Source: Pseudoclavibacter endophyticus
Lineage (GTDB): Bacteria; Actinomycetota; Actinomycetes; Actinomycetales; Microbacteriaceae
Direction of reading: 5' to 3'
DNA: 64,000 nucleotides
NCBI RefSeq assembly: GCF_008831085.1
Contig: NZ_WBJY01000004.1
Span: forward strand, 1-64,000
In this document: positions 28,536 to 49,743 of the stretch, one piece after another
Position numbering within the stretch: the first letter of the stretch is position 1
Layout: each line of letters begins with the position of its first letter
Made by a program: the position numbers and the translations under genes
The notes under the pieces: model-generated
What the model saw: the letters and a program-made list of their open reading frames with translations, nothing else
Told to the model about the DNA's origin: nothing
Databases searched by the model: none

Positions 28536-30257
28536 TTACGTGGAGGACGGCTCGGGCGCGCTCGTCGCCTTGGGATCGGCCTGCAGGGCGTCGCGCACCT
28601 TCTTGCGCAGCACCTTGCCGATGAGCGACTTCGGCAGCGCGTCCCACACGAGATAGGCGCGGGGGACCTTGTACTCGGCGAGGTGCTCTCGGGCGTGTTC
28701 GCGAGCCGTCCGCTCGTCGAACGTGGCGCCGTCGTCGAGCACGATCACCGCCGTGACGACCTCGGCCCCGCCGCCGCGCTTGATGCCGACGACCGCGACC
28801 TCGGCGACGCCGGGAACCTCGGCGACGACCCGCTCGACCTCGCTCGGCGAGACGTTGAGCCCGCCGGTGATGATGAGTTCCTTCTTCCGGTCGACCACCG
28901 TCACGAAGCCGTCCTCGTCCTGCTGCACGAGGTCGCCCGTACGCAACCAGCCGCCCGCAAGCAGGGTCTGCGCGGTCTCGTCGGGACGGTTCCAATACCC
29001 CGAGAAGACCTGCGGCCCGCGGATCAACAGCTCGCCCGTCTCGCCAAGCTCGACGTCACGGTCGGGCTCGTTCGAGTCGACGACCCTGATGTCGGTCGAG
29101 GGGAACGGAATGCCGATCGTGCCGGTCTTCCGCTGGGGCGTGAACGGGTTGCCGAGCGCGACGGGGCTGCACTCGGTGAGGCCGAAGCCCTCGACGAGTC
29201 GGCCTCCCGCGACGGTCTCCCACCGGTCGACGACGGCGTCGTTCAGCGTCATCGCGCCCGAGATGGCGTACGTCACGGTCGTGAGATCGAGCCGCCCGTC
29301 GCGTGCGACGCGCGCGAGGCGGTCGTACATGGGCGGGACCGCAGGAATGAACGTCGCCGGATGCCGTTTGGCGGCATCCACCACGAGGTCCGGGTCGAAG
29401 GTTGGGAAGAGCACGGTACGGGCCCCGACCGAGAGCGAGTAGATGACGCTGAGCAGCACGCCGAAGGCGTGAAACATCGGCAGCACGCCGTAGATCGTCT
29501 CTTCGCCGCGACGGAAGTCGGGCATCCACGCGGCGCCCTGTCGCGCGTTCGACCACAGGTTGCGGTGCGTGATCATGGCGCCCTTCGGGGTGCCCGTCGT
29601 GCCGGATGTGTACTGCAGGCAGGCGATGTCGTCGGCGTCGGGGCCGGGCGTGCGCTCGTCGAGGGTGCCGGCGGTAAGCAGTGAGCGGAAGGGGGTCGTG
29701 CCCGGTGCCTCGGCCGAGAGCTTGGCCCGCGACTCGCGCGCCTTCTCGATGGGCAGTCGCAGCGCGAGTCGCAGCTTGAGCGGCATCGCGGTGGTGACAT
29801 CGACCGAGATCACTTCGCGGATGCCGACCTCGCTGGCGATGGACTGCACGGTCGGGGCGGCCTTGTCCCAGGCGATGACGACCTCGGCGCGGTGGTCCTG
29901 GAACTGCGCGCGCAGCTCGTCACGCGTGTAGAGCGGGTTGTGCTCGACGACGATGGCACCGAGGCGGAGCACCGCGTAGAAGGCGATGACATGCTGCGGG
30001 GCGTTCGGCATGACGAGGGCGACACGGTCGCCCTTCCGGATGCCGCGCGCGCGAAGCCCGGCCGCGGCGCGCATGACCTGCTCCCGCAGTTTCCCGTACG
30101 ACGTCACGGCGCCGAAGAACACGAGCGCGTCACGAGCGCGGTACGCCGCGGCCGCCTCATCGAGCAGGTCGGCGAGCGAGCCGTTCGGGACGTCGATGTC
30201 CTTCGGGGTGCCGGGGGCGTAGAACCGATTCCAGGCGCGCGACTCGTTCAGTTGCAT
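28536..30257 (-). CDS. Long-chain-fatty-acid--CoA ligase / AMP-binding enzyme (FadD-like)
   Basis: A 573-residue adenylate-forming enzyme activating a carboxylic acid to its CoA thioester via an acyl-AMP. The P-loop-like A3 motif is YTSGTTGTPKGAMITH, A5 is EGFGLTECSP, A8 is GWLRTGDLVQQDEDGF with VDRKKELIITGGLNVSP, and the catalytic A10 lysine lies in LPKSLIGKVLRKKV. The short C-terminal tail is Ala/Ser-rich. The length and order fit the fatty-acyl class. It stands alone, convergent with the lysine-rich protein and 49 bp downstream of the UDP-glucose dehydrogenase-like gene. Confidence 0.9.
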   Translation of the reverse strand: MQLNESRAWNRFYAPGTPKDIDVPNGSLADLLDEAAAAYRARDALVFFGAVTSYGKLREQVMRAAAGLRARGIRKGDRVALVMPNAPQHVIAFYAVLRLGAIVVEHNPLYTRDELRAQFQDHRAEVVIAWDKAAPTVQSIASEVGIREVISVDVTTAMPLKLRLALRLPIEKARESRAKLSAEAPGTTPFRSLLTAGTLDERTPGPDADDIACLQYTSGTTGTPKGAMITHRNLWSNARQGAAWMPDFRRGEETIYGVLPMFHAFGVLLSVIYSLSVGARTVLFPTFDPDLVVDAAKRHPATFIPAVPPMYDRLARVARDGRLDLTTVTYAISGAMTLNDAVVDRWETVAGGRLVEGFGLTECSPVALGNPFTPQRKTGTIGIPFPSTDIRVVDSNEPDRDVELGETGELLIRGPQVFSGYWNRPDETAQTLLAGGWLRTGDLVQQDEDGFVTVVDRKKELIITGGLNVSPSEVERVVAEVPGVAEVAVVGIKRGGGAEVVTAVIVLDDGATFDERTAREHAREHLAEYKVPRAYLVWDALPKSLIGKVLRKKVRDALQADPKATSAPEPSST

Positions 30258-34317: not shown

Positions 34318-36165
34318 CTACGCCGTGACGACCGCCGCCGACCACGCCGGCAGCGCGAGCGTGCGCGCGGCGGGGCCCCGCGCATCCCGCCCATCCGCGC
34401 CGGTGATCCGCACCGCGCCCGTGCTTTGCCAGGCGAGTGACAGGCCGCTGGGCCCGTCGGCGTCGCCGGGCCCATCGGCGCCGTCAGCACCGCCGGCCTC
34501 CAGCGCGACCTCCCGCGGCTCGTCGCTCAGGTTGAACGCCGCCCGCACCTGGCCGGCCGCCAGCACGAGCGTGCGGGCCTGCTCGTCGACGACCGCGCGC
34601 CGGGCGGAGAGGCGCGGATCGACGAGGTCTGGCAGCTCCCGCCGCAGCCGGATGAGATCTCGGTAGGCGTGCAGCACGCGGGCGCCGCGGGCGGTCGACC
34701 GCTCCGACCAGTCGAGCCTGGCGCTCTCGAAGGTCGCGCGGGCCTGCGGGTCGGGCACGGCGTCGTGGTCCCAGCCCATGCGCTCGAACTCGCGCGCGCG
34801 GCCCGCTGAGACCGCCTCGCCGAGCTCGGGCTCCGGATGCGACGAGAAGAACGGGAACGGCGTCGCTGCTCCCCACTCTTCACCCATGAACAGCATGGGC
34901 GTGAACGGGGCCGTGAGCAGCAGCGCGGCTGCGACGATGAGCTGGTCATCACTGAGCGTCTGCCCGAAGCGATCACCCGCCGCCCGATTGCCGACCTGGT
35001 CGTGGTTCTGGATGCACGTGACCAGTCGCCAGGTCGCGGTCGCGTCGGGGAGCGGCCGCCCGTGGTGGCGCTCGCGGAAGGTGGAGAGGGTGCCGTCGTG
35101 GAAGAACCCGCGCTCGAGCACCTTCGCGACCGAGGCCAAGCCGTGCTCGGCGAAGTCCTCGTAGTAGCCGCTGCGCTCGCCCGTAATGGCGGCGTGCACG
35201 GCATGGTGGAAGTCGTCGGCCCACTGGGCGTCAATGCCGAGGCCGCCGGCCGTCACGGGCGTGATCATGCGCGGGTCGTTGAGATCCGACTCGGCGATGA
35301 GCGAGAGCGGGCGGCCGAGCCCGACCGAGCGCACCTCGGTCTCGCGCGCGAGCTCTTCGAGCACGTGCGTCGCGCGCGTGTCGCGGAGCGCGTGGACGGC
35401 GTCGAGCCGAAGCGCGTCGACGTGATAGTCGTCGAACCACATCGCGGCGTTGTCGAGGATGTAGCGGCGCACCTCGTCGGAATCGGGCCCGTCGAGATTG
35501 ACGAGCTCACCCCACCCCGTCGACGTGCCCGACTGCAGGTAGGGCCCGAACTGGCCGAGATAGTTGCCCGACGGACCCAAGTGGTTATAGACGACGTCTT
35601 GCACGACGCCGAGCCCGCGCTCGTGGCACGCGTTCACGAAGCGCTGGTAGGCGCGCGGCCCGCCGTAGGCCTCGTGCACGGCATACCAGGCGACGCCGTC
35701 ATAGCCCCAGCCCTCAGCACCGTTGAAGGCGTTCACGGGCATCAGCTCGACGAAGTCGACACCGAGGTCGACGAGCTCGCCGAGCCGCTGCGCCGCCGCG
35801 TCGAGGGTGCCCTCCTGCGTGAACGTTCCGATGTGCAGCTCGTAGATCACGCCGCCCGCGAGCCGGCGTCCCCGCCAGTCGCGGTCGGTCCACTCGAACG
35901 ACGTCGCATCGAAGGTGCGGGATGGGCCGTGCACCCCGTGCGGGAGCCGGCGCGACGTCGGCGACGGGACCAGGGCATCCGACCCGTCGATGCGGTAGCC
36001 GAAGTCGAGCTCGGGCTCGTCGAGCGCCGCGTGCCGCTCGGGCGAGAACCAGCCACCGCCCGCGGCACGCATCGGAACGACGATGTTTCGGTCCCCGGGG
36101 TCGAGCACGAGCTCGACGCTCGAGGCACGCGGTGCCCAGACGTCGAACGGGATCTCGCGCCGCAT
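34318..36165 (-). CDS. treZ: Malto-oligosyltrehalose trehalohydrolase
   Basis: A 615-residue GH13 enzyme that cuts free trehalose from the maltooligosyl-trehalose made by TreY. It has an N-terminal beta domain (FDVWAPRASSVELVLDPGDRN), catalytic barrel with DVVYNHLGPSGNYL, the nucleophile Asp in VDALRLDAVHALRD, the acid Glu in LIAESDLNDPR, and the conserved IQNHDQVGNR. The ATG overlaps the treY stop (ATGA read on the minus strand), so it is translated after treY. A Gly-Ala-Asp linker precedes the last 35 residues. It acts in the cytosol. Confidence 0.94.
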   Translation of the reverse strand: MRREIPFDVWAPRASSVELVLDPGDRNIVVPMRAAGGGWFSPERHAALDEPELDFGYRIDGSDALVPSPTSRRLPHGVHGPSRTFDATSFEWTDRDWRGRRLAGGVIYELHIGTFTQEGTLDAAAQRLGELVDLGVDFVELMPVNAFNGAEGWGYDGVAWYAVHEAYGGPRAYQRFVNACHERGLGVVQDVVYNHLGPSGNYLGQFGPYLQSGTSTGWGELVNLDGPDSDEVRRYILDNAAMWFDDYHVDALRLDAVHALRDTRATHVLEELARETEVRSVGLGRPLSLIAESDLNDPRMITPVTAGGLGIDAQWADDFHHAVHAAITGERSGYYEDFAEHGLASVAKVLERGFFHDGTLSTFRERHHGRPLPDATATWRLVTCIQNHDQVGNRAAGDRFGQTLSDDQLIVAAALLLTAPFTPMLFMGEEWGAATPFPFFSSHPEPELGEAVSAGRAREFERMGWDHDAVPDPQARATFESARLDWSERSTARGARVLHAYRDLIRLRRELPDLVDPRLSARRAVVDEQARTLVLAAGQVRAAFNLSDEPREVALEAGGADGADGPGDADGPSGLSLAWQSTGAVRITGADGRDARGPAARTLALPAWSAAVVTA

Positions 36166-38543
36166 CACTCGGCCCTCGCGAGGAGCGCCACGGGGTACGT
36201 GCCGAGCAGCGCCGCGATCGACACCGGGGAGCCGCCGCGATAGGGGCGCGCCGTCAGCTGGTCGATCCATTCACCTTCAGGCAGGTGCAGCATCGTGTCG
36301 CCCCAGCCCCCTCCATCGTCGAGTGTGAGCGGCAGCCTCGTGGCGACCGTGATGGCGCCGCCGCGGCTGAACGCGACGGCGTGCTGCGCCGCCGGCCCGG
36401 TCGCGACGACGGGTTCGTACGAGTCGAACAGCTGCGGACGATCGCGCCGCAGCAGGAGGGCGGCGGCGGTCACCAGCAGCTTCACCGCGCCCGTGTGATC
36501 GATCGGTGGCAGGACTCCGGAGAGGATGCCCTGCAGTGCCGATGCGCGCGCCCCGTAGTCGACGGGTCGCCGGTTGTCGGGGTCGACGAGCGTGTTCCGC
36601 CACAGCTCCGACCCCTGGTACACGTCGGGCACGCCGGGCATCGTCAACTGAATCAGCTTGGCCGTCAGCGCGTTCGAGTTGCGGGCCTCGCGAATCTGCT
36701 CGGCAAAGTTCTGCACGAGCGAGGCGACGACCGCATCGTCGAACACGGCGTCGACCGCGGCGCGCAGCTCGCCTTCGAACCCGTCATCCGGCATCGTCCA
36801 ACTCGTTCGGTCTCCGGCCTCGCGCGCCGCCTTCAGCGCGTAGTCCTTGAGGCGCTGACGCGTGGCCGGCCAAGCGCCGACCACTGCCTGCCAGAGCAGG
36901 TTCGCGAAGCCGGGATGCGAGATGGGCGCCGCCTCCATCAGCTGCACGAGCGTGTCCTCCCACAGCTCCGGCACCTCGCTCAGCACCGTGATCGCGGCGC
37001 GGACGTCTTCGCCGCGTTTCGTGTCGTGCGTTGACAGCGTCGTCATCGTGAGGGGACACGTCGCTTGCCGCTCGCGCTGCAGCTCGTGGAACTGTTCGAG
37101 CGAGATCGAGAAGACCGACGGGTCGCCGCCGACCTCGTTGAGCGAGGTGAGGCGGGAGTACCGGTAGAACGCGCGGTCTTCGACGGCCTTGGCCATGACC
37201 ATTCCGCTCGTCATCTGCAGGCGCTGGGCGGCGGGATGCTCCGGGTCTCGCAGGGCGGGCAGGACCGCGTCGATCGCCTCGTCGAGGTCGGGACGGGCGG
37301 CGCGCGCCCCTCGCACGGCCTCGTCGAGGTGCTCGCCGCCATCGGGCAGGTAGGTGCGGTAAACGGGGAACCAGGCGAGCAGCTCGCTGACAGCGTCGAC
37401 GATGTCCGGGTGGTCGACGCCGGCGCTCGTGAGCTCGCGCGTGATCCGGTTCACCTCTGCGTGCAAGGGTCCGTCAGTCATGTCGCGCTTCATCTCGTGC
37501 ACGAGAGCGTGCCAGTCGCGCGGGTCGCTGCCAGTCCGGGCGCTCGTCAGTTCGTCGAGGGCACCCTCGCTTTCGGGGTCGGTGAGGATGCGGTCGATCT
37601 CGCCGAGCGCGTCGTAGCCGGTCGTGCCGGTCGTCGCCCACGAGGCCTCGAGGCGCTCGCCCGGCTCGAGGATCTTCTCGACCACGACGTAGACGCCGCC
37701 CGTGCGTTCGGCGAGTCGTTCGAGGTAGCCGGCGGGATCGCGTAACCCGTCTGGGTGGTCGACGCGCAGGCCGTCGACGAGCCCCTCCCGCACCCAGCGC
37801 AGGATCTCGGCGTGCGTCGCCTCGAACACGTCCGGGTCTTCGACGCGCACCCCTGCGAGGCCCGTGACCGTGAAGAAACGCCGGTAGTTGAGCGTGAAGT
37901 CGCCCTGGCGCCAGTGGATGAGCCGGTAGTGCTGCATGGCGTGCACGCGCATGGCCGCATCGCCCGTCAGGAGCTGCTCGGCCGCGGCATCCGGCGCGTC
38001 GCTCGGCGGCTCGCCCTCCGCGCTGCCTGGCGCGAGCGGGAACTCGTTGTCGTGGTACCGGAGGACGCCCGCCGCGGGGTCGACGACGAGGTTGCCGATC
38101 GGCGCACCCGGGACGGTCGGCATGTCGTCATCGCCGATGACCGGCAGCAGCACGCGACCGTCGCCCGCGGCCCAGTCGATGTCGAAGACGCGCGCGTGCT
38201 CCGAGGCCTCGCCGTGACGCAGCACGTCCCACCACCACGCATTCTCGCGCGGCACCTGCACGCCGAGGTGGTTCGGCACGATGTCGACGAGCACGCCCAT
38301 GCCCGCCTCGTGGGCCGCGTCGGTGAGCGCGCGGAACCGCTCCGGCCCGCCGAGGGCGTCGCTCACGCGCGTCGGGTCGACCACGTCGTAGCCGTGGGTC
38401 GAACCGGATGCGGCCTGCAGGACAGGGGAGAGGTAGATCCAGTCGGCGCCGATCCCGCGAAGGTACGGCAAGACGGCGCGGGCCTTGTCGAAACCGAACT
38501 CAGGCGTCAGTTGCAGGCGGTAGGTGCTCGTCGGGGTGTCCAT
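36165..38543 (-). CDS. treY: Malto-oligosyltrehalose synthase
   Basis: A 792-residue GH13 enzyme that isomerises the reducing-end alpha-1,4 bond of a maltodextrin to the alpha,alpha-1,1 bond of trehalose. Recognisable are STYRLQLTPEFGFDKARAVLPYL at the start (in part), VDIVPNHLGV, the nucleophile in GLRVDHPDGLRDP, the acid in VVVEKILEPGE, and TLSTHDTKRGEDVRA. The length is typical. It is the middle gene of glgX-treY-treZ. Confidence 0.95.
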   Translation of the reverse strand: MDTPTSTYRLQLTPEFGFDKARAVLPYLRGIGADWIYLSPVLQAASGSTHGYDVVDPTRVSDALGGPERFRALTDAAHEAGMGVLVDIVPNHLGVQVPRENAWWWDVLRHGEASEHARVFDIDWAAGDGRVLLPVIGDDDMPTVPGAPIGNLVVDPAAGVLRYHDNEFPLAPGSAEGEPPSDAPDAAAEQLLTGDAAMRVHAMQHYRLIHWRQGDFTLNYRRFFTVTGLAGVRVEDPDVFEATHAEILRWVREGLVDGLRVDHPDGLRDPAGYLERLAERTGGVYVVVEKILEPGERLEASWATTGTTGYDALGEIDRILTDPESEGALDELTSARTGSDPRDWHALVHEMKRDMTDGPLHAEVNRITRELTSAGVDHPDIVDAVSELLAWFPVYRTYLPDGGEHLDEAVRGARAARPDLDEAIDAVLPALRDPEHPAAQRLQMTSGMVMAKAVEDRAFYRYSRLTSLNEVGGDPSVFSISLEQFHELQRERQATCPLTMTTLSTHDTKRGEDVRAAITVLSEVPELWEDTLVQLMEAAPISHPGFANLLWQAVVGAWPATRQRLKDYALKAAREAGDRTSWTMPDDGFEGELRAAVDAVFDDAVVASLVQNFAEQIREARNSNALTAKLIQLTMPGVPDVYQGSELWRNTLVDPDNRRPVDYGARASALQGILSGVLPPIDHTGAVKLLVTAAALLLRRDRPQLFDSYEPVVATGPAAQHAVAFSRGGAITVATRLPLTLDDGGGWGDTMLHLPEGEWIDQLTARPYRGGSPVSIAALLGTYPVALLARAE

Positions 38544-38669
38544 TGCGCTTCCTGATTGCCGTCATTGCCGGTGGCGGTGCCGGATGCTGCCGTGCGCTCG
38601 CGCCCGGCACGTCGACCCCGTGCATCCATCATCGTGCAGACGCCGTCATTCCGCAGCGACGCGCGGGCG

Positions 38670-40859
<2,190 letters not shown>

Positions 40860-41007
40860 GAAACCTCCAGTGATTGGGATGCGGTGGTGGGGCGACCGAC
40901 GCACTAAAGCTACCCGACGGGTTGCCGCCGGGGCGCAGCGGGCCCGCAAGACGCGAAACGGGCGCGCATGGGCCGTAGATGCACAGGCACCGTTCGCGCC
41001 ACCTGCC

Positions 41008-46480: not shown

Positions 46481-47275
46481 TCATGCTGGGTGAGGAGTGC
46501 CGTGCCTCGCCACGTCGTCGCGCAGGATCGTCGGCCAGCGCAGGACGTCTTCCCGGGTCGCGGCGACGTGCAACTCTGCGTCAGGGAGCAGTTCCGCGAG
46601 CAATTCCGCGGTCGACACCGGATGCGCCGGATCGTCGACCCATGCCAGGATCGTGGCGCGTGCGGTCACGTCTCGCAGCGCGTCAGGTTTCGGATAGTCG
46701 CTCATGGCGGCGCCGCGAAGCAACGACGGCAGGATGCGCTCGGCCACGTCAGGAACGGTATGCGGCGTTCCGACCGTGGCCGGAGGCGGCGGGGCTCCCT
46801 CGCCCGCCTCGACGAAGGCGGCGAAGCCCTCGCGCTCGATGAGGTCGGCGTCGCTTCGGTAGGCCTCCGCCTTGGGCCCGCGCGTCACCCACGCCGTCGA
46901 CGGGCACAGCAGCGTCAGCCCGTCGAATCGCTCGGGGTCGCGCACGGCGGCGTGCAGGAGTGTCGCGGTACCCATGGACGGCCCGACCCCGTGCACCTGT
47001 TCGCCGGGGAACCAGGCGTCGAGCAGCCGCAGTAAGTCGTCGGCGAGCACCTGCCACCGGTAGTCGCTCGGCTCCGCGCGGCCTGTCGAGCGGCCGTGCC
47101 CGCGGGCGTCGTATCGCAGGAGGCGCGTGCCGCTGAGCCCCCGCCCGAGGTCAAGGTCGAGCACGCGGTCGCGGCGACGGCTCGACGTCAGGCCATGGAG
47201 CTGGACGACGGGGTGGCCGCCCTCGTCGCTCAGTTCGACGTCGAGCACGGCACCTGGAACAACAAAGGTCGTCAT
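46481..47275 (-). CDS. Alpha/beta hydrolase
   Basis: A 264-residue alpha/beta-hydrolase-fold enzyme. The oxyanion region is VVQLHGLTSSRRRD, with RLLRYDARGHGRS after it. The nucleophile elbow is GVGPSMGTATLL (G-x-S-x-G with Ser), the acid is probably the Asp in ATILAWVDDPAHPVS and the base the His in DDVARHGTPHPA, at the very C-terminus. ATG 47275 has GGAG 5-6 bases upstream. Substrate unknown. It is divergent from the condensation-GNAT gene with only 42 bp between starts. Confidence 0.87.
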   Translation of the reverse strand: MTTFVVPGAVLDVELSDEGGHPVVQLHGLTSSRRRDRVLDLDLGRGLSGTRLLRYDARGHGRSTGRAEPSDYRWQVLADDLLRLLDAWFPGEQVHGVGPSMGTATLLHAAVRDPERFDGLTLLCPSTAWVTRGPKAEAYRSDADLIEREGFAAFVEAGEGAPPPPATVGTPHTVPDVAERILPSLLRGAAMSDYPKPDALRDVTARATILAWVDDPAHPVSTAELLAELLPDAELHVAATREDVLRWPTILRDDVARHGTPHPA

Positions 47276-47305
47276 GGTGGCTCCGTGCGCGAAGATGGGG
47301 TGCCT

Positions 47306-47311
47306 TAGAGT
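47306..47311 (+). promoter_or_regulatory. Candidate -10 box for the condensation-GNAT gene
   Basis: TAGAGT fits TANNNT exactly 6 bases before the ATG at 47318, implying a leaderless transcript. Confidence 0.35.
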
Positions 47312-47317
47312 ACCGCC

Positions 47318-49084
47318 ATGCGGCTCACCAACGTGGCGCATCTTCGGCTCCCCTTCGGCCGCCTCGTGGGCTACAACGTGACGGTGACGCCGACCGACCG
47401 GATGCTGCCCATCTCGTTCGACCAGCACCGACACGTCAGCGTTGGCGACCGTGCGGGCTCGTGGATGGCCGTTTCACTGCGCCTGCCCAAGCCGGTTCCT
47501 CGCGCGGCCCTCGCGGCGGCGTGGCTCGCGGTGGTGCGCCGGCACGGGACCCTGCGGTCGGTGTTCGAGCGCGGCGACGACGGCGGGCTCGTACTGCGGG
47601 AGGTTGAGATCGGCGAGGGGGAGTGGGCGCCGCACGAGATCGCGCCGGGGCAGACGGTGAGCGACGCCCTGCGTGAGGTCATCGACGCCACGTGCACGCC
47701 GTTCAGCCGACCATCGCACCGGCTGTGCGTGCTCGAGACGGCCGATGGGCCGACGATCGTGATCGCGGCCGACCACTCGCACGTCGACATGTGGTCGATG
47801 CTGGTCCTCGGCCGCGACCTGCTCGCCGCACTCGCGGCCGCGGGCGAGGGGCGGCACCCCGAGTTGGACCCGGCGCCCGCGTTCGCCGAGCACACGCGCG
47901 CACTCGAAGACCGGCCGACCGCCCCCGAGGACGTGCGCCGGCGCTGGGCCGAGGTGCTCGCCGCGAGCGGAGACGCCATGCCGAGGTTCCCGCTGTCTCT
48001 CGGTGAACCGAGCCCGCAGCGGGAGCGGGTCGAGGTGCGCGATGTGCTCGGGGTCGATGACGTCGCCGCGTTCTCGGCGCAGGCGCGCGACTACGGCGTC
48101 TCGACGCTCGCGCTCGTCGTGTCGGCCATGACGCACGTGACCCACGAGCTTGCCGGCAGCCCGCTGCGCGCCGTCTTCCCGGTGCACAGCCGCTATGACG
48201 CGACGTGGCTCGACTCGGTCGGCTGGTTCATCACCAACTCGGTCATTGAGTCCGTCGATCCCGACCCGGTCGCATGCGCCGCCGCCGTGAAAGAGGCCGT
48301 GCAACTCGGCGCCTGGCCGCTCGCCGACGTGCTCCAACCCTGGGGCGGCATGCCCGAGGCGCCCCGCATGTTCGCCATCTCGTGGCTCGACCTGCGCCGG
48401 CTGCCCGTTCGCATCGACTCCCTCGGCCTCGAGGCCCAGTACGTCGGCGCCACGATCCTCACCGACGGCGTCATGCTCTGGTTCATCCTCGACGCCCAGG
48501 GGCTGCACCTGCGATGCCGATACCCCGACACGGCCCAGGGCCGCGAGCACGTCGGCGCGTGGCTGGACGCCCTCGTGACGCATCTGCGTTCGGAGGCGCG
48601 AGCATCCGTCGGGGGTCTCCTCACGCTCGGCAATCGGCACTTCCGCGTGCAGCGCGCAGCGCGCGGTGACGTGCCCGCCATCGTGGGGCTCCTGGCCGAC
48701 GACGAGCTCGGCCGCGACCGCGAGGTGGCGGAGCTCGCGCACTACGAGGCCGCGTTCGATGCGATCGCCCACGACTCGTCGCACTACCTCGTCGCCGTGC
48801 GCGACGAGGGCGACCGCATCGTCGGAACGATGCAGCTCACGGTCATCCCCGGCCTCTCGCGGGCCGGTGCCACGCGTCTGCAGATCGAGGGCGTGCGCGT
48901 CGCCGCCCACGAACGCTCGCGCGGGCTCGGCACCGCCATGCTCGAGTGGGCGCACGGCCATGGGCGAGCCAGGGGGGCGACCGTCGCGCAGCTCACGACC
49001 GACCTGTCGCGCTCGCGCGCGCACGACTTCTTCCGAGCGCTCGGCTACGCGTCCACACAGGCCGGGCTGACCCGTGATCTCTGA
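47318..49084 (+). CDS. Condensation-domain acyltransferase fused to a GNAT acetyltransferase
   Basis: A 588-residue two-domain protein. Residues 1-435 form an NRPS condensation/PapA-like acyltransferase fold: PISFDQHRHVSVGDRAGSWMAV, the catalytic H-x-x-x-D as His153 and Asp157 in ADHSHVDMWS (first His of the classic HH pair is Asp), GWFITNSVIESVDP as the G-x-F-x-N latch motif. Residues about 445-588 are a GNAT domain with VRVAAHERSRGLGTAMLEW, the acetyl-CoA pyrophosphate loop, and HDFFRALGYASTQAG at the end. No NRPS carrier or adenylation domain is nearby. It probably makes an ester or amide on a small acceptor; the substrate is unknown. Confidence 0.82.
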   Translation: MRLTNVAHLRLPFGRLVGYNVTVTPTDRMLPISFDQHRHVSVGDRAGSWMAVSLRLPKPVPRAALAAAWLAVVRRHGTLRSVFERGDDGGLVLREVEIGEGEWAPHEIAPGQTVSDALREVIDATCTPFSRPSHRLCVLETADGPTIVIAADHSHVDMWSMLVLGRDLLAALAAAGEGRHPELDPAPAFAEHTRALEDRPTAPEDVRRRWAEVLAASGDAMPRFPLSLGEPSPQRERVEVRDVLGVDDVAAFSAQARDYGVSTLALVVSAMTHVTHELAGSPLRAVFPVHSRYDATWLDSVGWFITNSVIESVDPDPVACAAAVKEAVQLGAWPLADVLQPWGGMPEAPRMFAISWLDLRRLPVRIDSLGLEAQYVGATILTDGVMLWFILDAQGLHLRCRYPDTAQGREHVGAWLDALVTHLRSEARASVGGLLTLGNRHFRVQRAARGDVPAIVGLLADDELGRDREVAELAHYEAAFDAIAHDSSHYLVAVRDEGDRIVGTMQLTVIPGLSRAGATRLQIEGVRVAAHERSRGLGTAMLEWAHGHGRARGATVAQLTTDLSRSRAHDFFRALGYASTQAGLTRDL

Positions 49085-49290
49085 GGAGCGAGACGGGGAG
49101 GAACGGTCGCACCGGCGGCCCGCGTCACCTGCCTCGCAAAAGTGAGAAGGGGATGAGTTATGCCCCCGCCGCCAGCCGGTCGGCGTTGACGGCATCGTCG
49201 CCCGCACATCGTTTACCGAATGATGATGCAGTGACCGAGGGCGGTGCGAGCGGGATTCCAGCGGCAACGCCGACCGGGGGAGGGAAGGGC

Positions 49291-49743
49291 ATGTACCAGC
49301 GATTCGTCAGAGCGAAGGTGCGATCGACGTTCGAGAAGATCAACAGCGGCGACTACATGGCGATGGTCGACGGGCTGGCCCCGTCCTTTGAGTACCGCTT
49401 TCATGGTGACCATGCGCTCGGAGGCCGACGGACGAGTCGAGACGCGATGATCCGTTGGTGGCAGCGCGTGATGAAGCTCCTGCCGGGAGTCCGGTTCGAC
49501 GTCCACGACGTTCTGGTCTCCGGCGGCCCGTGGCGGACGATGGTCGCGGTACGGTCCTCCGTCTCCGGCGACCTGCCGGGCGGCATCCGCTACGAGAACA
49601 CGGTCTTTCAGCTCATGACGCTGGTCTGGGGCAAGGTCACGTCGGTCGAAACCATCGAAGACCTCCAGATCCTCGAACGGGCGTTGCGCGCCGTCGCCGA
49701 GACCGGAGAGGCCGAGGCGGTCGCGGGCCCCATCGACGGGTGA
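49291..49743 (+). CDS. SnoaL/NTF2-like protein
   Basis: A 150-residue protein with the SnoaL-type cone fold: YQRFVRAKVRSTFEKINSGDY as the first helices (in part), FEYRFHGDHALGGRR, RDAMIRWWQRVMKLLP, then beta strands RFDVHDVLVSGGPWRTMVAVR and ENTVFQLMTLVWGKVTSVETIED. Family members are isomerases, dehydratases or of unknown function. ATG 49291 follows GGGGGAGGGAAGGG; in-frame starts at 49231 and 49153 only add a disordered Gly/Ala segment. Confidence 0.78.
   Translation: MYQRFVRAKVRSTFEKINSGDYMAMVDGLAPSFEYRFHGDHALGGRRTSRDAMIRWWQRVMKLLPGVRFDVHDVLVSGGPWRTMVAVRSSVSGDLPGGIRYENTVFQLMTLVWGKVTSVETIEDLQILERALRAVAETGEAEAVAGPIDG

Follow-up and report, generated by a model that had tools for sequence, protein, structure and literature searches.

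A PapA2-type acyltransferase, often fused to a GNAT domain, and its constant divergent hydrolase partner in actinobacteria: a possible two-gene acylation cassette

Introduction

PapA enzymes have been described from lipid biosynthesis in mycobacteria. The PapA1-4 group, which includes the trehalose-2-sulfate acyltransferase PapA2, is marked by a cluster of PKS, FadD or MmpL genes. For PapA2, and for PapA2 only, the acceptor positions P171, T307, T324 and S384 were named by docking (PMC6996325). In the mycobacterial acyltrehalose pathways, enzymes of the PapA kind work together with a hydrolase-like acyltransferase, namely PapA3 with Chp2 and PapA1/PapA2 with Chp1. PapA3 is reported to acylate trehalose and Chp2, a membrane-anchored protein with a canonical Ser-Asp-His triad, to transesterify the product (PMC4183827).

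Here we describe a locus of Pseudoclavibacter endophyticus in which a PapA2-type acyltransferase is fused to a GNAT domain and lies back-to-back with an alpha/beta hydrolase. The window, i.e. the whole stretch of DNA that was analysed, comprises positions 1-64,000 (64,000 nucleotides) of contig NZ_WBJY01000004.1 from assembly GCF_008831085.1. Our searches of the open-access PMC literature gave no description of the fusion or of the pair.

Results and discussion

Overall architecture of the PapA-GNAT protein

The ORF at 47318-49084 on the forward strand encodes 588 amino acids plus the stop codon, and its position, length and two motif sets were verified as an earlier sequence-only reading had given them. 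That reading had also placed a condensation and a GNAT domain in one chain, and Pfam detected both above their cut-offs: Condensation (PF00668) scores 45.4 bits against a cut-off of 30.6 and spans residues 48-306, and Acetyltransf_1 (PF00583) scores 49.4 bits against a cut-off of 20.7 and spans residues 475-577. The start codon is likely to be the ATG at 47318, because residues 2-4 (RLT) are conserved in 70, 70 and 68 of 73 rows, respectively. The AlphaFold2 model of the whole chain has a mean pLDDT of 90.7 and a pTM of 0.86. The acyltransferase half comprises residues 1-432 (47318..48613, forward strand), and the GNAT half comprises residues 437-588 (48626..49081, forward strand).

Structural kinship of the acyltransferase half to PapA2

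When the model was compared with solved structures, the nearest by far was PapA2 (PDB 6aef). Residues 1-429 superposed on it over 424 residues with an rmsd of 2.4 Å, both having the two-lobe Condensation/CAT fold, at about 21% identity, and the predicted structural match of the first half to a condensation or PapA fold was thus confirmed. The earlier reading had left open whether this half is NRPS-type or PapA-like; the PapA-like description held, while the NRPS condensation domains (TomBC, LgrA and CmnI) were 11 Z units more distant than PapA2. PapA5 was absent among the 50 structural matches listed, which is no argument against kinship to PapA5.

The HxxxD catalytic motif, His153-Asp157 (47774..47788, forward strand), is aligned with H166 and D170 of PapA2. 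Retention of these two residues in close homologues had been named beforehand as decisive, and each is conserved in 72 of 73 loci, the sole exception being L073, in which the gene is broken. The GWFITN motif at residues 302-307 (48221..48238, forward strand) is conserved position by position in 69-73 of 73 rows, with Gly302, Trp303 and Asn307 in all 73, Phe304 in 71 and Thr306 in 72. The surroundings of the active site differ from those of PapA2: the motif reads H-S-H-V-D-M here and H-x-x-x-D-P in PapA2. Among the docking positions, which are known for PapA2 only, S384 corresponds to Ser355, present in 73/73 rows, whereas P171 and T307 are replaced by Met158 and Pro288, and T324 falls in a gap. 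Because of these changes, trehalose-2-sulfate itself is an unlikely acceptor.

Unlike the PapA2/PapA1-4 group, the enzyme is fused to GNAT in many members and has a constant hydrolase partner, and the PKS, FadD or MmpL cluster of that group is absent. Since the linkage to a lipid or polyketide synthase gene cluster is missing, the enzyme is PapA-like with a constant partner, rather than a PapA of the lipid-pathway kind. Names given by the sources to members among the best 120 of 950 homologues include GNAT family N-acetyltransferase, peptide synthetase and papA3.

The absence of an NRPS nearby, noted from the sequence before, extends to the whole genome, where our profile search found PF00668 in this ORF only, PF00550 once and PF00501 11 times. 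NRPS condensation domains have carrier and adenylation partners, whereas the acyltransferase described here has neither, and with one carrier match in the whole genome it is unlikely to use NRPS substrates bound to a carrier. With its catalytic residues and GNAT loop intact, the protein agrees with the former proposal of an acyltransferase outside a megasynthase. The accompanying statement that the window lacks an adenylation domain needs a correction: an AMP-binding domain, the only one reported in the window, lies at 28992-30161, although it sits inside a long-chain fatty-acid CoA ligase and does not belong to an NRPS. The ligase gene (28536-30257, reverse strand) scores above the curated PRK05605 cut-off and is located 17 kb from the PapA-GNAT gene.

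The GNAT half is an accessory part

The GNAT half matches the Bacillus halodurans GNAT 1z4e with 81.8 bits; the two have the acetyl-CoA loop in common, although 1z4e is free-standing. The RSRGLGTA loop recognized earlier (residues 533-540; 48914..48937, forward strand) is present and conserved, with Arg533 in 47, Gly536 in 48 and Gly538 in 47 of the 51 fused rows. A chain longer than 500 residues, i.e. the fused form, occurs in 51 of 73 loci, and 114 of the best 120 of 950 homologues exceed that length. An intact short form, ending after the acyltransferase half, is found in 20 loci, and the remaining two are the truncated L048 and the broken L073. When we searched the flanks of 28 short-form loci (the 22 loci above that lack the fused form plus L114-L119) with the GNAT half as a query, using flanks of up to 8 kb for L041-L062 and of 1.5 kb for every other locus, no separate GNAT matched below an E-value of 0.8, and the sole match at E up to 1 was 27 residues long. 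The fusion had been read as one compact enzyme, which describes 51 of the 73 loci; it is not central to the system, since 20 loci are intact without GNAT and have no separate copy in the flanks searched. The GNAT is thus an accessory, optional part. In L056 and L119 the matches extend past the short form to residues 515 and 518, but a search with the GNAT half gave no match in either locus at E up to 1.

In the GNAT tree, all 51 fused copies lie on one side of a branch and 16 free-standing GNATs together with 1z4e lie on the other (SH-aLRT 93), a grouping that fits a single fusion event. On the acyltransferase tree the fused/short label changes four times, and the short forms L043 (Gordonia) and L053 (Leucobacter) sit within a mainly fused clade, which suggests that GNAT was lost in these two lineages. 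This tree was rooted at the midpoint and has long branches for L057 and L072, so that it does not fix the direction of GNAT gain or loss.

A divergent hydrolase is the constant partner

The gene on the other side of the acyltransferase start encodes an alpha/beta hydrolase of 264 amino acids (46481..47275, reverse strand), and the 42 bp given earlier as the distance between the two genes is the spacing of their start codons. In a survey of its co-occurrence, which the sequence-only reading had called for, the hydrolase was a constant neighbour, lying divergently back-to-back with the acyltransferase in 80 of 81 places including a few near-copies (L037/L067 and L049/L058). These places are the window, 60 of the 61 loci L002-L062, all 11 of L063-L073, all seven of L113-L119, which are further genomes of the own family, and one Tsukamurella plasmid. 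The sole miss is L048, which contains acyltransferase residues 141-430 only and lies near a contig end; in L023 the hydrolase match is in two pieces. The main loci were found by exact 8-residue patterns of the PapA-GNAT protein, by which close relatives are over-represented, and since they were chosen by the acyltransferase alone, the pairing is not built into the locus set. In L073 the acyltransferase frame is disrupted while the hydrolase is intact.

In a survey of the class, orthologues of the two genes occurred in exactly the same 12 of 296 genomes, when acyltransferase orthologues were called at E below 1e-80 (best condensation-type match elsewhere 8.6e-41) and hydrolase orthologues at E below 1e-70 (next match 8.8e-59). 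The pairwise distances of the two proteins, calculated without L023, L048 and L073, were correlated with r of 0.895, a value reached in 0 of 1000 permutations, and such a correlation is expected for any two co-inherited genes. Second-tier hydrolases in six other genomes had no common partner; in one of them (L123) the crude gene call had missed the hydrolase.

The unit does not extend beyond the pair in the data covered here. Nine of ten other window genes had no match in the 61 other loci, and the tenth, the acyl-CoA ligase, had two distant matches of 27-29% identity. Clustering of neighbours in 62 loci, based on crude gene calls, gave the acyltransferase in 60, the hydrolase in 43 (tblastn placed it in 61 of the 62), an SDR family in 11 and an apparent shadow frame of the hydrolase in nine. 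The SDR family, which is a common one, was considered as a conserved third gene and taken as background. Neither this clustering nor the search with the ten window genes revealed a recurring gene for acyl-CoA supply, export, regulation or a polyketide synthase/lipid cluster. A co-oriented SnoaL-like gene (49153-49743, forward strand) begins 69 bp downstream of the PapA-GNAT stop codon and has no match in the 61 other loci.

Active site of the hydrolase

The AlphaFold2 model of the hydrolase has a mean pLDDT of 90.0 and a pTM of 0.89. It contains the nucleophile elbow serine, Ser100 in GPSMG (46976..46978, reverse strand), and the acid after strand 7, Asp215, which we take to be the catalytic acid and which is aligned with an Asp of 3om8. 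Asp215 belongs to an Asp215-Pro-Ala-His218 motif (46622..46633, reverse strand), and Ser100 of the GxSxG motif, Asp215 and His218 are invariant in 66/66 rows. Near-copies, L023, L048 and L073 were left out of the alignments, which have 66 rows (A1) and 62 rows (A2).

The catalytic His of alpha/beta hydrolases normally follows strand 8. However, no conserved His was found after residue 218 in the 66 rows, the commonest positions being 258 (31/66), 254 (13) and 239 (10), of which position 239 is closest to the canonical place. The closest known alpha/beta hydrolases, the 3-oxoadipate enol-lactonase/esterase group (2xua, 5h3h and 3om8), differ in both respects: the hydrolase here lacks a conserved His after strand 8 and has an invariant His three residues past the acid. 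Eight more distant hydrolases (L104-L111), with 42-50% identity and from genomes without an acyltransferase orthologue, retain D-P-x-H-P in 8/8, and the stretch after strand 8 lacks His in seven of them, L110 having two. Absence of the canonical His, judged from these relatives, is a trait of a larger hydrolase subfamily. The hydrolase homologues listed were the best 120 of 2509. Since no conserved His follows strand 8, the hydrolase may be inactive, and the earlier suggestion that it is the hydrolytic counterpart of the acyltransferase is conjectural. If it is active, its active site, lacking the canonical His, would be arranged unusually for one of the largest enzyme folds. A relocated catalytic His was not found in the open-access PMC literature.

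The control region between the two genes

In 70 loci, the two start codons are separated by a median of 51.5 bp. All 64 loci counted have a TANNNT element whose end lies 6-10 nt upstream of the acyltransferase start (6-8 nt in 63), the count being based on 64 non-redundant of 71 loci after L048 and L073 were dropped, as they were from the acyltransferase tree. Shuffles gave an expectation of 2.3, and the same element preceded 75 of 338 other ATG-called genes in the loci, a control that rests on crude gene calls. The symmetric form TANNNTA, which in the window is TAGAGTA at 47306..47312, is present in 56 of the 64 loci, compared with 0.41 per shuffled set and 5/338 other genes. Of the 64 loci, 55 have a Shine-Dalgarno-like word ahead of the hydrolase (GGAG at 47281..47284, reverse strand, in the window) and 18 have one ahead of the acyltransferase. 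Symmetric -10 elements are reported to direct divergent transcription in E. coli, and the genes so transcribed are often linked (Warman and Grainger, PMC12825309). The occurrence of a -10-like element at every one of the 64 loci, with the symmetric form at 56 of them, suggests a bidirectional promoter common to both genes, and based on the -10-to-start spacing we infer that the acyltransferase is translated leaderless.

Spread and mobility

The pair occurs in 20 named genera of actinobacteria, the most distant carrier being a Solirubrobacteraceae MAG. Its distribution is patchy, with the pair in 12/296 class genomes and the acyltransferase in 8/150 family genomes, and two other listed genomes of the same genus are both without the acyltransferase. 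Among the best 120 of 950 homologues, the closest are from Rhodococcus, with 77% identity over residues 1-435. Within the own family, seven other genomes have a match, at 48-70%, and comparable values are seen in named members of other families. Because identities within the own family are no higher than those of other families, and a copy lies on a plasmid, the distribution fits horizontal movement of the pair, without proving it. The plasmid copy (L112, NZ_LR134454.1, Tsukamurella tyrosinosolvens) is located on a 289-kb plasmid, where it adjoins an SDR gene and lies near genes for Ku and an ATP-dependent DNA ligase. A phage or a defence origin was also considered and rejected, since there was no match in 50,697 phage records and no PADLOC match for the acyltransferase or the hydrolase.

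Proposed function and alternative explanations

Based on these observations, we propose a self-contained two-gene cassette for acyl transfer and deacylation on a small polar acceptor. His153 would serve as the general base in a tunnel between the two CAT-like lobes, and an acyl group, which we infer to come most likely from CoA, would pass to a hydroxyl group, or else an amine, on a small, polar and diffusible acceptor. In many lineages the GNAT domain on the same chain would acetylate the same or a related molecule. The substrate of the hydrolase would be the acylated product or a precursor of it, from which the enzyme would remove the acyl group or transfer it once more; in this way the two enzymes together would set the level of the acylated compound, and a single symmetric -10 element would probably fire both genes. 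In our judgement, which is not a computed value, acyl transfer by the PapA half is very probable, an acceptor that is small rather than carrier-bound is likely, and action of the hydrolase on the same compound is somewhat favoured; a sugar-like acceptor has a little less than an even chance, and the statement as a whole has an even one. A bolder form, in which the pair is a make-and-break switch for an acylated small molecule common to many actinobacteria, with the His of the breaking enzyme relocated behind the strand-7 acid and both genes fired by the symmetric promoter, seems doubtful.

The nearest alternative by precedent is a glycolipid cassette of the PapA3/Chp2 kind, in which the acyltransferase would acylate trehalose or a similar sugar, for the hydrolase to transesterify the product to a more acylated lipid. 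PapA2 as the nearest structure agrees with this, as do the PapA3/Chp2 precedent (PMC4183827) and the treZ, treY and glgX genes 6-13 kb away in the window. However, Chp2 is reported to be membrane-anchored with a canonical triad, whereas the 264-residue partner lacks the canonical His, its model begins at strand 1 without a leading hydrophobic segment, and it has a promoter region in common with its acyltransferase, a further difference from the PapA3/Chp2 system. Of the four PapA2 docking positions, moreover, two differ and one is in a gap. Mycolic-acid or trehalose-lipid envelopes are not known from several of the genera with the pair, which also counts against this explanation, and we consider it unlikely. 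The trehalose genes themselves (treZ, treY and glgX/treX at 34318-40949, reverse strand) form a trehalose-from-glycogen cluster 6 kb from the PapA-like gene; the flanks retrieved for 61 other loci contain no match to them, so their proximity is probably due to chance and the linkage was discarded.

A resistance or detoxification cassette, in which the acyltransferase, with or without GNAT, would inactivate a foreign compound that is an alcohol or amine, for instance an antibiotic, while the hydrolase would cleave an ester or lactone in it, would account for the patchy spread, the plasmid copy and the self-contained unit; the hydrolase profile matches macrolide esterases in the PDB, and the GNAT has a weak similarity, far below the cut-off, to aminoglycoside and streptothricin acetyltransferases. 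We regard it as quite unlikely, since the -10-like element in 64/64 loci resembles steady housekeeping expression, residues are highly conserved across families as with a fixed substrate, and no export or regulator gene recurs in the loci. A similarly low probability is given to the hydrolase-fold partner being no enzyme at all and serving instead as a regulator that binds a ligand or as a partner in the assembly of the acyltransferase: the missing canonical His, the constant pairing with a common promoter region and the presence of the strigolactone/karrikin receptors D14 and KAI2 among the structural matches point that way, whereas the invariance of Ser100, Asp215 and His218 in 66 rows fits a retained active site. 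The idea of an orphan NRPS condensation domain, a remnant of a megasynthase, is barely credible and was set aside; the PF00668 match and the name peptide synthetase that some sources give to relatives speak for it, but the genome has one Condensation and one carrier match, the fold is much closer to PapA2 than to any NRPS condensation domain listed, and the two-gene unit is conserved.

A PapA2-type enzyme outside any pathway cluster and almost always with the same partner across 20 genera points to one conserved acylation chemistry. As the module consists of no more than two genes, this chemistry is open to direct tests. Besides the pair, two genomes of one family (G118 and G266) carry, at L078, L080 and further places, tandem runs of at least three PapA-like ORFs with 27-34% identity.
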